Positions 10,753 to 59,770 of a stretch of 64,000 nucleotides of DNA are shown piece after piece. Numbering within the stretch: the stretch's first letter is position 1; every line of letters starts with the position of its first letter. A program made the translations under genes and the position numbers. The stretch is from Cutibacterium acnes (GTDB lineage: Bacteria > Actinomycetota > Actinomycetes > Propionibacteriales > Propionibacteriaceae), in NCBI RefSeq assembly GCF_003030305.1, contig NZ_CP023676.1, positions 372,001 through 436,000 of the forward strand, given 5' to 3'. The notes beneath the pieces are model-generated. The model did not search any database and was not told the DNA's origin. It saw nothing but the letters and a program-made list of their open reading frames with translations.

Positions 10753-10789
10753 CCTCGTTGGGGCCGAGTCGCGCGGCCGTCGGGTAAGT

Positions 10790-10926
10790 GTGGTCCGGGA
10801 GGTTTTCGGACTTGGCATCATCCGAACGAGCGCCTTCCCGGGTTGTTCCCAGTGGCTTGCTACTTGCCCGTCTGCGTTACCGCTGCGCGTCAGTCCCCGA
10901 TTCTCACGGGGTTCCCTGCATCGGAC
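10790..10926 (-). promoter_or_regulatory. Cobalamin (AdoCbl) riboswitch
   Basis: On the minus strand the leader reads, in canonical order: GGGAA, then CCCCGTGAGAATCGGGG and ACTG (10891-10917), GCAGCGGTAACGC (10874-10886), AAGCCACTGGG, CCCGGGAAGGCG and finally GATGATGCCAAGTCCGAAAA followed by CCTCCC. These match the conserved blocks of cobalamin riboswitches, including the core GGGAA..GGTG.AAATCC..ACTG..CCGCAACGGTAA, the CCACTG/GGGAAGGC paired arms and a B12-box-like element. AdoCbl binding would be expected to hide the permease ribosome-binding site. Boundaries are approximate; no folding was computed. Confidence 0.85.
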
Positions 10927-10932
10927 GGCGGT

Positions 10933-10941
10933 ACTTTAGCA
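10933..10941 (-). promoter_or_regulatory. Extended -10 element of the B12 operon
   Basis: TGCTAAAGT on the minus strand looks like an extended -10 (TGn plus TAAAGT) and would place the transcription start near 10926, just before the riboswitch core. The -35 region falls inside the 22-bp tandem repeat. Confidence 0.45.
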
Positions 10942-10944
10942 CAA

Positions 10945-10988
10945 CCTTTAGTACTACCTCATCTGGCCTTTAGTACTACCTCATCTGG
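10945..10988. repeat. Perfect 22-bp tandem duplication
   Basis: The unit CCTTTAGTACTACCTCATCT plus GG occurs twice back to back (10945-10966 and 10967-10988) with no mismatch, in the promoter zone between the riboswitch and the SIP gene's 3' end. Confidence 0.9.
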
Positions 10989-53803: not shown

Positions 53804-53951
53804 GGTCCCTCCTGTCATCGGGTGTTTCTGGAGGTAGCTAAGCCAGGGCGTCGGAAATTTTCGACCAATTTTCGGATCCGCCGTGACGAATGTTCCCCCT
53901 AGACATCTACACATATGAAAGTCCCCACACATCGAATGGAGATGAGCCGAT

Positions 53952-54470
53952 ATGACTGACAACAAGACCGCTTCCGCTAAATCCGATGCCACGAAAACCG
54001 AGAACCTGCCAGAGACAACGACCAAAGAGACCCTGCCTCCCTCGCCGCTGCACACCGATCACGGCTCCACCCTCATCGCTGAGCAGGTAGTCCAGAAGAT
54101 TGCCGGTATTGCCTGCCGTGAAGTCCCCGGTGTGCACGCCATGGGATCCACTGGTCGCCGGATGCTCAGCTCTATCACCGATCGCATCCCCGGATCGACT
54201 ACCAACGTGTCGAACGGCGTCCAGGTTGAAAAGGGCGAGCGTCAGTGCGCTATCGATCTGTCCGTGGTTATTGAGTACGGCTACTCAGTTGTTGAGGTCG
54301 CCAATAAGCTCCGCGAAACCATTATTGACGCCGTTGAGTACGGCACCGGCCTTGAGGTCGTTGAAGTGAATGTCCAGGTCACCGATGTCTACATTCAGGG
54401 TGAGGACGATCACGACGACGACCAGTCTGATCAGGTTGCCGGCCAGCGCAAGAACACCGAACTTTCCTGA
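53952..54470 (+). CDS. Asp23/Gls24 family envelope stress protein
   Basis: 172 residues. After a charged low-complexity N-terminus (TETTTKETLPPS) comes the Asp23 domain: LIAEQVVQKIAGIACREVPG, then IDLSVVIEYGYSVVEVANKL and a C-terminal acidic, His/Asp-rich tail (about 155-165). Asp23 family members associate with the membrane through an AmaP/DUF6286 anchor and respond to alkaline or cell-envelope stress. First gene of an apparent five-gene run. Confidence 0.92.
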   Translation: MTDNKTASAKSDATKTENLPETTTKETLPPSPLHTDHGSTLIAEQVVQKIAGIACREVPGVHAMGSTGRRMLSSITDRIPGSTTNVSNGVQVEKGERQCAIDLSVVIEYGYSVVEVANKLRETIIDAVEYGTGLEVVEVNVQVTDVYIQGEDDHDDDQSDQVAGQRKNTELS

Positions 54471-54481
54471 AAGGCGACACT

Positions 54482-54667
54482 ATGAATGCATCGCGCATCG
54501 GAGCACTCGTTGGACTGCTGTTGGGTGTGATTGCAGTCTGTGTTGGTGTGTGGCAGGCGATTGTCGTGCTGGTGCTGGGGCTGCTCGGTCTCATCATTGG
54601 CCGGATCATTGACGGTCAGCTCGACGTGCACGACATTTTCGGCAAACCAAGTCAACGGAACCGTTGA
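54482..54667 (+). CDS. DUF2273 small membrane protein
   Basis: 61 residues with two adjacent hydrophobic helices (IGALVGLLLGVIAVCVGVW and IVVLVLGLLGLIIGRIIDG), the GxxxG-rich DUF2273 layout often encoded with Asp23 genes. Spaced 11 bp from the Asp23 stop; GAAAGG RBS. Probably helps bring Asp23 to the membrane. Overlaps the next start by one base. Confidence 0.9.
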   Translation: MNASRIGALVGLLLGVIAVCVGVWQAIVVLVLGLLGLIIGRIIDGQLDVHDIFGKPSQRNR

Positions 54668-55080
54668 TGTCCGCCGGCACCACACGCGTACGTTCGGTGC
54701 CCTCGCTGGCGGTCCACAATCGTGAGAAGGCTAGTCGTGGAACCCTAACGGTCACAACAGCGGTCGTCGAGAAAGTCGCTGCTCGCGTGGCGGCTCAAAG
54801 CGAGGGTTTCGGGGCTCCCACCTCGTCCTTCTTCGGATCAGGCTCGCGCGCCGACTTCGACCGAGGCCCGAAGGTTAGTGCGGTCCTTACCGGCCGTACG
54901 GCTGATCTTGAGGTGGAGGTTGCCATTGGCTACCCCGCCCCCGTTCAAGCTCAGTGTGATGATCTGCGAGCCCGATTGACCGAGCAGGTACCGAAGATGT
55001 CCGGAGTGGATATTCGCACGATTGACATCCTGGTGAGCCGGGTCGTCAGCAAAGCCCCGACGATGAAGGAGTTGACCTGA
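54667..55080 (+). CDS. Asp23-like protein (second paralogue)
   Basis: 137 residues from ATG 54667, which shares its A with the previous stop (TGATG). A short Asp23-like domain is visible: TVTTAVVEKVAARVAAQSEG, LEVEVAIGYPAPVQAQCDDL and VDIRTIDILVSRVV. Lacks transmembrane helices. It begins with about 25 residues of basic/serine-rich tail. Next gene starts one base after its stop. Confidence 0.8.
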   Translation: MSAGTTRVRSVPSLAVHNREKASRGTLTVTTAVVEKVAARVAAQSEGFGAPTSSFFGSGSRADFDRGPKVSAVLTGRTADLEVEVAIGYPAPVQAQCDDLRARLTEQVPKMSGVDIRTIDILVSRVVSKAPTMKELT

Positions 55081-55081
55081 G

Positions 55082-55636
55082 ATGAGCAAGCAGTACGTGT
55101 CTCCTCCTCTCATTCGTCGACCCTCCCGGACGCTTCCGGTGACGATCCTGGCTGTCGTGCTCCTGGCAGCCGGGGTGGTGGCCATCATCGCTGCTATCCA
55201 ACGACTCCAGCACGGATCCTTGCCGCAGTGGGTGGCCTGGGGGCGTGGTCACATGACCACCGCGTCATGGCTCAACGACACTGCCCTGACAGTGGCCATT
55301 GTTATCGGTGTCGTCGCGCTGCTGTTTCTGATATGGGCCTTCAAGCCGGGACGGACATCTGGGGTGTTTCTTCAACCGAGCGAGGGTGCTCCTGACAATC
55401 GGGAGATCGTCATGGACAACTCGGACCTGACAGGGTGGCTGTCTCGCTGGCTTGACGAGGAGGACGGCGTCGCATCATCAGTAGTAAAACGTCGTGGCAA
55501 AACTCTCAAGGTCCACGCCGAGACTGACGTCAAGGACCCAGAGGTGATGCGGGAGCAGCTCACGACGAGAATCGCTGCCCGCGTTGATTCGCTGGGGTTG
55601 GAACAACCCCTGAAGGTGGAAGTGAGGTTGCGATGA
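55082..55636 (+). CDS. DUF6286-type Asp23-locus membrane protein
   Basis: 184 residues with two N-terminal helices (VTILAVVLLAAGVVAIIAAI and LTVAIVIGVVALLFLIWAF) followed by a soluble domain of about 95 residues resembling the cytoplasmic half of Asp23 anchor proteins. Located after two Asp23 genes and overlapping the next gene by 4 bases (ATGA). Confidence 0.82.
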   Translation: MSKQYVSPPLIRRPSRTLPVTILAVVLLAAGVVAIIAAIQRLQHGSLPQWVAWGRGHMTTASWLNDTALTVAIVIGVVALLFLIWAFKPGRTSGVFLQPSEGAPDNREIVMDNSDLTGWLSRWLDEEDGVASSVVKRRGKTLKVHAETDVKDPEVMREQLTTRIAARVDSLGLEQPLKVEVRLR

Positions 55637-56349
55637 AGGGCCGCGCAAATAGAACACGACTCGCCGTCGTCGGGATCATCGGTCTGGTAGTGGTTGCGTG
55701 GTTCATGCTGGTGCGGTTCAACGTCGTCTCGTCGTGGGGATGGCGGCAGCCCAAACCCGACGCCCCTATCGTCGACGTGCCGAAGGCATGGCGAACTGAC
55801 TACGCATCATGGGCTCTGCTCATTGTCGGGATCTTAGTCGCGGTGATTGGGTTGGTCTGGCTGCTTCGTCAGTTCTCGTCGAGCAATCGGGCCCACACCT
55901 ACGGCATGAGCCACGAGGCGGACCACGGCTCAACAGTGCTGTCCACAGACGCTCTGGGAAGGGCCGTTGAGGAGCAGATCGAGGAGTTCCCCGGAGTCAG
56001 TAGCGCTAGCGTGAGATTCTTTGGAGCCCGTGTGGCTCCCGAGATGATGGTTCAGATCGACATCGATGACCGCGCCGACGTGCGAAAGCTCGTCGACCGG
56101 TTGGAGTCCGAAGTGGCTCGCGACGTCGAGGCGACCCTGGACGCGAAGCTGGTGCGGTTTGGGACGAAACTGCGGACCGGAGCACACGTCACTGGAATGG
56201 GCGTGAGCCACGTCGGTGTGACCGAAGTGCCCAACATTGACGATTCGGGAGACAGTCTTCCTGCCAATCCGATGCCGAAATCGACATTTCTTCAAGAAAA
56301 GTCCGACCGGGCCAAGCCGAGGACTCGCGAGGGGAAGGTGCTCGCCTAA
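55633..56349 (+). CDS. amaP: AmaP-type alkaline shock membrane anchor
   Basis: 238 residues. Two helices (TRLAVVGIIGLVVVAWFMLV and YASWALLIVGILVAVIGLVW) then a soluble domain with VGRAVEEQIEEFPGVSSASVR-like and IDIDDRADVRKLVDRLE stretches, as in AmaP. C-terminal tail is basic. Anchors Asp23 proteins to the membrane. Closes the first Asp23 unit; 56 bp separate it from the ECF sigma gene. Confidence 0.8.
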   Translation: MKGRANRTRLAVVGIIGLVVVAWFMLVRFNVVSSWGWRQPKPDAPIVDVPKAWRTDYASWALLIVGILVAVIGLVWLLRQFSSSNRAHTYGMSHEADHGSTVLSTDALGRAVEEQIEEFPGVSSASVRFFGARVAPEMMVQIDIDDRADVRKLVDRLESEVARDVEATLDAKLVRFGTKLRTGAHVTGMGVSHVGVTEVPNIDDSGDSLPANPMPKSTFLQEKSDRAKPRTREGKVLA

Positions 56350-56405
56350 GGTGCGCTGGCGGTCGAGGACACAGAAGTGCCCTCGACCGCTGCTAGCGTC
56401 TAATC

Positions 56406-56981
56406 ATGGTCAGCAGAGTCGATGGTCACGGTGGCGACGAGGTCATCCTGGCAGACATTCGCGCTGCTCAGGACGGAGATGCCGGCGCTTATGCTCGCAT
56501 CGTCAAATCGTGGGGCGGGCGGCTTTTGAGATTCTGCCGTAACAACCTTCCGGCTACGATAGACGCCGAAGATGTCGTTCAGGACGTTTTGCTCACTGCC
56601 TGGCAGAAATTGCCTGGCCTCGACGACCGGTCCAGATTCAGGGCGTGGATGTACACCATCGCTCGTAACCGGTGCCGGGAGGTTATTCGGACCGCAGGGA
56701 GGCGCGCTACCGATCCGGTGTCTCCGGAGGAGGTTGCGGTAAAGATCGATTCCAGGCAGGACCCAGCGAGGGCTCATGCCAGAGACGCAGCAATGATGGC
56801 GCTGCGAAAGAGTGTTGCTGGGTTACCGGATACCCAGAGAAGTATTTGGGTAATGGCCCAGATAGACGGTCTCGGATATGCCGAGATCGCCGATATTGAG
56901 GGATTACCATTGTCCACCGTCCGGGGTCGTTTAGCTCGGGCGAGGGCCACCATTGCGAAGGAGATGGAGTCATGGAGGTGA
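56406..56981 (+). CDS. ECF RNA polymerase sigma factor
   Basis: 191 residues, classic ECF length. Region 2 (DGDAGAYARIVKSWGGRLLRFCRN, then DAEDVVQDVLLTAWQKLPG) and region 4 (LPDTQRSIWVMAQIDGLGYAEIADIEGLPLSTVRGRLARARATI) are complete. Stop overlaps the next start by 10 bases, so the two are translationally coupled as sigma/anti-sigma pairs usually are. Likely controls the neighbouring Asp23 genes. Confidence 0.93.
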   Translation: MVSRVDGHGGDEVILADIRAAQDGDAGAYARIVKSWGGRLLRFCRNNLPATIDAEDVVQDVLLTAWQKLPGLDDRSRFRAWMYTIARNRCREVIRTAGRRATDPVSPEEVAVKIDSRQDPARAHARDAAMMALRKSVAGLPDTQRSIWVMAQIDGLGYAEIADIEGLPLSTVRGRLARARATIAKEMESWR

Positions 56982-57496
56982 AGCTCGCTTGTGGCGCGGA
57001 TATGAACCGCGTTTGGGAGGGAGCGACACAGCCTCTCACAGAACATGAGGCCGAGTGCCCAGCTTGCCAAGCTGTGCGCATTGAGGCTCTTCGTGCTGAT
57101 CAGCTGCGTGACGACACGGTTGCTGAGGATGCGCAGACCAAGGTAGTCGTCGATCCACTGAAGCTAAGCTCAGTGTGGAGGTCATACGCTGCTGACCTCT
57201 CGCCGCGCCACTGTGTTTTCGATGATGACGGCGGTCAAGTGGAAGTCCGAGAAACCGTGCTTGCCGCGATTGTGCGTAACAGCCTTGCCGACTGCGAGGA
57301 CGGGAGACTTAATCGGATTCGGTTCTCGGTGCCCCACACCCCATTGAGACTTCGCATTGATTTATCTGTCGCGCGAGGGGTGCGGATACCTGATTGTGCC
57401 GAGCGGGTGCGTCACCGCATTTCGACGGCGATGACCCGTGAGCTTGGTGGCCGTCCGGAAGCGATCGACATCATCGTGGAGGATATCCATGTCTGA
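56972..57496 (+). CDS. ZAS-motif / Asp23 fusion, candidate anti-sigma factor
   Basis: 174 residues. N-terminal part holds the H-x3-C-x2-C signature of zinc anti-sigma (ZAS) proteins (LTEHEAECPACQ, about residues 22-33) with an upstream Cys, and a C-terminal half of about 100 residues is an Asp23-like domain (LRIDLSVARGVRIPDCAERVRHRI, EAIDIIVEDIHV). No transmembrane helix. Gene overlaps the ECF sigma by 10 bases and the next Asp23 gene by 8. Predicted to bind the ECF sigma and to tie its release to the membrane-bound Asp23 assembly. Confidence 0.78.
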   Translation: MEVKLACGADMNRVWEGATQPLTEHEAECPACQAVRIEALRADQLRDDTVAEDAQTKVVVDPLKLSSVWRSYAADLSPRHCVFDDDGGQVEVRETVLAAIVRNSLADCEDGRLNRIRFSVPHTPLRLRIDLSVARGVRIPDCAERVRHRISTAMTRELGGRPEAIDIIVEDIHV

Positions 57497-57842
57497 GCTT
57501 AAGAACGACGACGTCGTCTCTGGAACGCTGCTGACGGGCGAACACATCATCGATGACCTAGCGGGGATCATTGTCACTACCGTCCGTAACACCCCGGGAG
57601 TGACGCGACTCGTGAAGCCGTGGTGGCGTCGAATTGGTAATGATGACCGCTCAGCGATACGGATCAGCGAGGAGGATGGGCTTAGCGAGGTCAAGGTGGA
57701 GGTTACTGTCGACCTGACGGTGCCTATCGTGCAGTTGACACAGGACCTTCGTCACCGGGTTTCTACCGCCATTACCCAGTCGGGACGCACTCCAGGCAAG
57801 GTAGACATTGTCGTATCCAAAGTTGAGCCCAATAACGAGTGA
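57489..57842 (+). CDS. Asp23-like protein (third)
   Basis: 117 residues from ATG 57489 (GGAGG 7 bases upstream). Asp23 domain: IIDDLAGIIVTTVRNTPGVTRLVKP, then KVEVTVDLTVPIVQLTQDLRH and KVDIVVSKVE. Contains an Arg/Trp-rich stretch (VKPWWRRIGN) not seen in the others. Overlaps the ZAS-Asp23 gene by 8 bases and ends the locus; terminator at 57862. Confidence 0.82.
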   Translation: MSELKNDDVVSGTLLTGEHIIDDLAGIIVTTVRNTPGVTRLVKPWWRRIGNDDRSAIRISEEDGLSEVKVEVTVDLTVPIVQLTQDLRHRVSTAITQSGRTPGKVDIVVSKVEPNNE

Positions 57843-57861: not shown

Positions 57862-57892
57862 ACGAGGCCCCCAGTCATACCGGGGGCCTCGT
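57862..57892. terminator. Terminator between Asp23 locus and ugpC
   Basis: ACGAGGCCCCC / GGGGGCCTCGT (57862-57872, 57882-57892), perfect 11-bp stem between two convergent genes. Confidence 0.8.
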
Positions 57893-59008: not shown

Positions 59009-59716
59009 GACCGTTGTTCCTTTCCACGGGCAGGTACGTGCCCGACGATCCGTTGTGGAAAATCGGTGACGGATGTCACCGGGTCCCTCCGAGGTTTCGA
59101 GGAGCCAAAATTGATCATAATGGACACAACCCACAAAGGTGGGCCGGGGGGTGAAGATGCAGCGATTCTCCTTGTCAAGTGGCGAATTTTCCGCGTGAGG
59201 GGAACTATGAATGAGGTCTTGCCGCAATCTGGCACAGGATGGTCGTCCCGGGACGTGCGCAGAGGACCACCCCTCATGTTCTTCTACATCGCGGCCCACT
59301 GGACTGTGGATTCACGGTTGTTCCCATGCGAGGCTGGTTCAGCTTAATCGCCGTCAAGGTCGAGAAAAAGTTTGTCGGTTGTTCCCATGCGAGGCTGGTT
59401 CAGCTTGGTTCGCTTTTCCGTTTCTTTAACCACCGGTCGCTCCCTTGCGGCAGTGACGGTATGTGGGGTGATTAACCACGGATTTGTGTAATAGATTCCC
59501 TAGGATTTTTGCTTGATCCTCCCGCGGTTTATCCCGCCTTTTATGGTGGAAAGTGTGGGCGGCGTTCGGGGCCAGAGGGTGTGGGCTCGGCCGTGCCAGG
59601 GTTGTCAGAGGATTCCACTGTGGTGCCCGTTCCTGCCAAAAATGCAATGGACAATTGTCAGATCAGCGGTGAAAAAACAGGGGACAACGTGTTGAACCGC
59701 CAATCCCGGCCCCTCG
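59009..59716. other. 708-bp intergenic region with repeats
   Basis: No recognised gene; short ORFs here (for example 59509-59733 plus) lack RBS and family resemblance. The region carries the ugpC promoter side, the two-copy 61-bp-period repeat at 59315-59406 and AT-rich DNA at about 59460-59520. Confidence 0.5.
59315..59406. repeat. Two 31-bp direct repeats with a 61-bp period
   Basis: The unit starting CGGTTGTTCCCATGCGAGGC and ending TGGTTCAGCTT occurs exactly at 59315-59345 and 59376-59406, 30 bp apart. A weaker relative (CGGTCGCTCCCTTGCGG) begins at 59434, 58 bp after the second copy. Period and unit size resemble a type I-E CRISPR, but the repeat has no clear strong palindrome and no cas genes are near. 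Array status is unproven. Confidence 0.75.
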
Positions 59717-59770
59717 ATGCGCCGAGCTGCTAGCACTCGCGTTGCCAATGCGCCGAGCTGCTAGCACTCG
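59717..59770. repeat. Two 23-bp direct repeats over the sdaA 3' end
   Basis: ATGCGCCGAGCTGCTAGCAC followed by TCG occurs at 59717-59739 and again at 59748-59770 (31-bp period). The second copy covers the last codons and the stop of sdaA; the first lies just beyond. Confidence 0.9.

Follow-up and report, generated by a model that had tools for sequence, protein, structure and literature searches.

At the end of an Asp23 operon of Cutibacterium acnes, a gene for an extracytoplasmic function (ECF) sigma factor overlaps a gene for a protein that joins a zinc anti-sigma-like N-terminus to an Asp23 C-terminus, here called the fusion. The two form a genuine, conserved module that makes biological sense and had in part been foreseen in the literature. 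The operon lies in a stretch of 64,000 nucleotides (contig NZ_CP023676.1, positions 372,001 to 436,000), referred to below as the window, within which all positions are numbered. It comprises eight genes on one strand at 53952-57842, several of them overlapping and none more than 56 bases from the next, in the order Asp23A, DUF2273, Asp23B, DUF6286, AmaP-like, ECF, fusion, and Asp23E, the module and Asp23E being the last three. We consider it fairly likely that the fusion acts as anti-sigma factor to the ECF whose gene overlaps its own, with its Asp23 half as the sensor, and that the sigma factor drives the Asp23 operon. The domain identities, the gene overlap, and the co-occurrence are supported at the sequence level. 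From them we infer, with fair support, the anti-sigma function of the fusion and the sigma control of the operon; how the fusion might dock, what signal it might read, and in which direction it might switch are conjecture.

The ECF protein (191 aa; 56406..56981, + strand) has sigma regions 2 and 4 only, as Pfam Sigma70_r2 matches residues 33-100 (1.3e-16) and Sigma70_r4_2 residues 131-182 (6.6e-12), and NCBIfam TIGR02937 scores 91.5 bits against a cut-off of 42.9. The fusion gene (174 aa; 56972..57496, + strand) overlaps it by 10 nt, its ATG lying inside the terminal Trp-Arg-stop of the ECF gene. An initial annotation of the window had described an ECF gene overlapping one for a protein with HxxxCxxC and an Asp23 domain, and both reading frames are indeed found there, together with an upstream cysteine, C7, that it had missed. 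The full motif is C7-x17-H25-x3-C29-x2-C32, with HxxxCxxC as H25-E-A-E-C29-P-A-C32, and it supplies the candidate ligands of the N-terminal domain (residues 1-79; 56972..57208, + strand). When 16 sequences including that of the window were aligned, C7, C29, and C32 were invariant and H25 was present in 15. Because the ligands are kept at identities down to 24%, the pattern is not due to chance.

A profile of 41 N-terminal domains, from which the motif-less L091, L102, and L103 were left out and in which C7, C29, and C32 are invariant, was compared with PDB. The four best rows were 3hug_B (RslA, 6.9e-5), RsiW (0.0075), a zinc finger (0.015), and DdvA (0.082), so that all but the zinc finger are anti-sigmas. 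With the full-length fusion profile, RslA and RsiW were matched at 0.0037 and 0.043. The Pfam zf-HC2 match is weak and confined to 1 of 47 family members, and searches by fold turned up no clear relative for the N-terminal part. PMC2877774 describes 3HUG as the complex of SigL with RslA, whose His25 and HxxxCxxC hold zinc. The initial proposal of a zinc-type anti-sigma factor fused to an Asp23 unit is supported in part: the sequence bears out the domain architecture and the overlap with the ECF gene, whereas binding of the sigma factor and joining of the scaffold are putative. In the AlphaFold2 model of the fusion (pLDDT 89.6), residues 11-16 and 24-28 form short helices, residues 30-55 a long one, and residues 62-75 another, after which comes an alpha-beta domain. 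Neither Pfam nor this model indicates a membrane segment.

The C-terminal half (residues ~79-174; 57206..57493, + strand) falls below the Pfam cut-off for Asp23 by itself, with 19.4 bits against 28. Its Asp23 identity is nevertheless secured by a profile-profile comparison with the Asp23A family, built from 16 bona fide Asp23 proteins, which gave an E-value of 1.7e-13 over 111 columns (hhalign, 98.0%). Asp23 is also matched at E<=0.1 by 39 of 47 fusion family members. In this respect, too, the initial annotation was right.

Across Actinomycetes, ECF and fusion genes are found paired next to Asp23 operons. The fusion was matched in 16 of 57 genomes in a first search, the window's own genome included, and in 132 of 394 genomes of the class, many of the latter through the Asp23 half alone. 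Neighborhoods were examined for 16 loci from the first search and 40 from the second, picked mostly among the best matches. All 16 loci of the first set have an ECF next to the fusion or to what remains of it, and Asp23A is absent only from L034 (15/16); in the second, Asp23A is present in 38 of 40, that is, in all except L078 and L083. The 10-nt overlap was found again across families. The pair is co-directional with the Asp23 operon and downstream of it within the window's genus, and divergent from it in 31 of 49 loci outside the genus. A scan of named genomes yielded 75 loci from Streptomyces, Nocardiopsis, Streptomonospora, Actinomadura, and one unclassified actinobacterium, with an adjacent ECF in 72 and Asp23A in 69. 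S. rimosus and M. cosmeticum, the examples of a review of groups ECF286 and ECF292, are not among them.

Several loci depart from this layout. One of nine genomes of the genus, G002, lacks Asp23A, the fusion, the ECF orthologue, and the upstream dyad described below all together. In G006 of the same genus (L025, 5670-6303) the fusion is frame-broken and C29 lost, with the ECF and Asp23 genes intact; either the sigma factor has naturally lost its presumed anti-sigma partner or the sequence contains an error. Five loci of one family (f22; L096, L097, L098, L099, and L101) encode, divergently from the Asp23 operon, a longer Asp23-like protein without the zinc motif, and no ECF was found there. 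Two pairs per genome occur in G025 (L034 and L035) and in one Streptomyces strain (L182 and L213), and one of the G025 copies has no Asp23A inside the 9 kb examined.

A lack of Cys/His conservation, which the initial annotation said would refute its proposal, is not seen overall, although a minority of the proteins depart from the motif. Among 49 ECF-adjacent proteins picked by profile, the window's included, all four ligands (C-H-C-C) are present in 40, a set itself biased toward zinc-bearing members; the His is absent in 5 and the motif in 4. As controls we collected 20 Asp23 loci in genomes that lack a full fusion; in 16 of these loci no ECF was found, and all four ECF-adjacent proteins of the others lack the motif. 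The motif is present in 73 of the 75 named loci, a count uninformative on conservation because the scan patterns include the cysteines. Pooling gives 112 of 126 full sets (40 of 49 profile-picked, 0 of 4 control, and 72 of 73 named), some named rows being the same loci as profile-picked ones. For both reasons, the choice of named rows with cysteine-containing patterns and the shared loci, 40/49 is used instead. L025 was left out of alignments A1, A2, and A3, and L032, L086, and L096-L101 out of A2; the A2 rows L030, L084, L087, L091, L102, and L103 were left out of A3, the N-terminal profile.

On a tree of the ECFs, the C-H-C-C label requires six changes, at least four of them forced by starred branches, the tree being a quick one of 71 of the 126 rows with SH-aLRT support only and several long branches. 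Among the eight motif-less proteins, all but L152 could start at a codon that gives the same 10-nt overlap with the ECF gene. We read the ligand differences as apparent scattered loss, with a direction that cannot be read from the counts. As the ligands changed while the pair stayed, zinc is not needed in every lineage for the role of the pair. Its part is probably mainly structural, since some lineages keep the pair without the ligands.

A promoter-like dyad, CGTGAC-N15-RCATCY (53882..53908, + strand), ends 43 bases 5′ of Asp23A. The pattern is present somewhere in all nine genomes of the genus and just upstream of Asp23A in eight, G002 being the ninth; at this site CGTGACGA is invariant in seven aligned species. 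Four closely related loci from another family of the same order have CGTGAG-N16-ACATCT. In other families, CGTGA[C/G]-N15/16-GTGTCC precedes Asp23 and/or ECF genes, so that only the CGTGAC half and the spacing of the window's dyad agree with theirs, and the second half is different. Among 31 divergent ECF/Asp23A regions, from which this pattern was itself derived, the dyad toward Asp23A is perfect in 12, and in none of 1550 shuffles. The fetched loci, 570 kb in all, contain 21 exact dyads, of which 16 are located upstream of Asp23A or ECF.

A test set was made of 59 divergent regions from the named genomes minus 5 shared with the discovery set. In these 54 regions, scores of at least 11/12 occur toward Asp23A in 32 (6 perfect) and toward ECF in 13; after similar regions were thinned, the counts were 22/40 and 12/40, respectively, and shuffled test regions gave about 1% in each direction. 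With spacings of 12-20 allowed, all 22 test-set dyads ending in [AG]TGTCC have 15 or 16. The spacing goes with the first half: CGTGAC has 15 in 4/4, and CGTGAG has 16 in 17/18 and 15 in the other. None of the 20 control loci contains an exact dyad, including the four with an ECF, and genome-wide dyad scans revealed no wider regulon. The simplest reading would be that the ECF reads the dyad and thereby drives transcription of the Asp23 operon, and also of its own gene in loci that have the pair in or behind the operon.

We conceive that the N-terminal C-x17-H-x3-C-x2-C would form a short zinc anti-sigma (ZAS) domain holding the sigma factor, and that the C-terminal Asp23 domain would be the sensor of a soluble protein. 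The sigma factor would transcribe the whole Asp23/DUF2273/DUF6286/AmaP operon and therefore also itself and its inhibitor. The Asp23 half of the fusion may dock on, or compete within, an Asp23 layer held under the membrane by the AmaP and DUF6286 anchors; by analogy with staphylococcal Asp23/AmaP, it should be able to meet such a layer. The free or perturbed state of the layer could then set how much sigma factor is held, making a homeostat that measures its own product. This fuller version, in which the ECF senses assembly of its own scaffold through an anti-sigma Asp23 unit exchanging with it and zinc is an optional brace absent in some lineages, is put forward tentatively, as a possibility somewhat short of an even chance.

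The dyad could instead be the operator of another regulator, which we think improbable. The promoter is a predicted one, the second half of the dyad differs in the window's order, and the exact form is missing from four control loci that have an ECF. These points are countered by two hexamers standing at a fixed spacing of 15/16 bp toward both Asp23A and ECF, and by the absence of exact copies from those 16 control loci that yielded no ECF. The fusion could also be a redox switch like RsrA/RslA, in which oxidation of C29/C32 frees zinc and the sigma factor and the Asp23 half only localizes the protein. CxxC chemistry of this kind is described for RslA in PMC2877774, and the three cysteines are invariant in the 41 N-terminal domains, from which the three motif-less proteins were left out. 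However, an ECF and an Asp23 domain are kept where the His (5/49) or the motif (4/49) is absent, all four control proteins lack the motif, and in ChrR the sensor is the cupin domain rather than the zinc domain (PMC2877774). We therefore regard a redox switch as unlikely; the CxxC may have a redox role, but this could not be a general one, because zinc-less lineages exist.

Least probable, in our view, is that the fusion serves a structural role, as an Asp23 subunit fitted with a zinc clip, the sigma factor being set by transcription alone and the overlap reflecting operon packing. Its gene does sit among structural Asp23 genes, and the five f22 loci keep a divergent Asp23-like gene without zinc motif or ECF. 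On the other hand, the N-terminus resembles anti-sigma domains, and fusions with the zinc motif adjoin an ECF in nearly all fetched loci. An anti-sigma fusion controlling the operon's own sigma factor is thus retained as the preferred reading.

The initial annotation had supposed this mode of sigma control to be undescribed, which holds in part. As reported in PMC8999054 after Casas-Pastor 2021, ECF286 and ECF292 are, like the window's ECF, encoded beside soluble Asp23-family proteins, which are predicted anti-sigmas with no experimental data. The portion of that review available assigns ZAS proteins to other groups, ECF270/271, and does not mention a zinc-Asp23 fusion; the primary classification may describe one. 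A search of titles and abstract openings, in which subscription literature is thinly covered, found no description of the fusion or of the dyad promoter. An Asp23-type kind of anti-sigma has thus been predicted in print, and what appears new here is that the two domains are fused, that the ligands have changed, and that a dyad accompanies the genes, with priority uncertain.

RslA of Mycobacterium tuberculosis (3HUG) shares the HxxxCxxC zinc anti-sigma domain and, among solved structures, comes nearest in sequence to the N-terminal profile, but it is membrane-associated, whereas the fusion has no indicated membrane segment, a shorter C-x17-H spacing, and an Asp23 sensor half. ChrR of Rhodobacter sphaeroides likewise combines a soluble zinc anti-sigma domain with a separate sensor domain, which is a cupin for singlet oxygen instead of Asp23 (PMC2877774 and PMC8999054). 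In staphylococci, AmaP tethers Asp23 to the membrane, the two sharing an operon as in the window, and Asp23 forms filaments; deletion of asp23 or amaP strongly induces the cell-wall stress response (PMC6954212). In contrast to the control proposed for the window, asp23 there is under SigB rather than an operon-encoded ECF, and the passages available mention no fusion (PMC11350273, PMC6954212).

The module would provide a direct link from the Asp23 layer to gene control, with a sigma factor, a candidate promoter, a part-Asp23 candidate anti-sigma, and natural variants without zinc ligands. We know of no established mechanism making such a link. If the proposal is true, a cell could sense the state of the layer directly through a switch protein made of the same building block. 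The predicted Asp23-type anti-sigma groups would thereby gain a domain layout and a candidate for the target promoter, and the zinc-less variants would serve as an experiment of nature on the role of zinc.

The initial annotation counted a five-gene Asp23 locus; instead, eight co-directional genes are found. Four of them encode Asp23 domains, of which two pass the Pfam cut-off and two fall short of it, and another two encode DUF6286 or AmaP-like domains. The kinds of neighbors that the initial annotation listed are borne out by Pfam and NCBIfam matches, and the same setting recurs in several families. All on the + strand, they are Asp23A (53952..54470; Pfam Asp23 1.2e-28), a small DUF2273 membrane protein (54482..54667; Pfam 4.5e-08), Asp23B with an uncertain start codon (54664..55080; Pfam Asp23 2.5e-06, 28.3 bits against 28), a DUF6286 membrane protein (55082..55636; Pfam DUF6286 1.6e-17, NCBIfam AmaP 7.1e-08 below cut-off), and an AmaP-like membrane anchor (55633..56349; NCBIfam anchor_AmaP 92.5 bits against 55). 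Asp23E (57489..57842; Pfam Asp23 0.00097, 20.0 bits against 28), a single-domain protein, can be aligned with six genus copies and two single-domain genes of f7 loci; its gene overlaps that of the fusion by 8 nt.

Between the anchor and ECF genes lies an inverted repeat with a 10-bp stem (56359..56390, + strand), conserved in seven aligned species with a consensus energy of -31.5 kcal/mol and one pair with a compensatory change. An invariant GCTAGCGTC follows on its 3′ side, immediately before the ECF start; the two may form a processing site, an attenuation site, or a second promoter. A terminator-like hairpin of 14 pairs stands 3′ of the operon (57862..57892), predicted on the - strand from a symmetric repeat. 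Elsewhere in the window, an msiK RNA motif (59013-59071, - strand; Rfam RF01747, 64.3 bits) lies upstream of a sugar ABC ATPase gene converging on the Asp23 operon, and a cobalamin riboswitch (RF00174, 76.6 bits) is found at 10780-10976 on the - strand. Two perfect direct repeats occupy intergenic DNA at 59315-59406 (31 nt twice, spacing 61) and 59717-59770 (23 nt twice, spacing 31).
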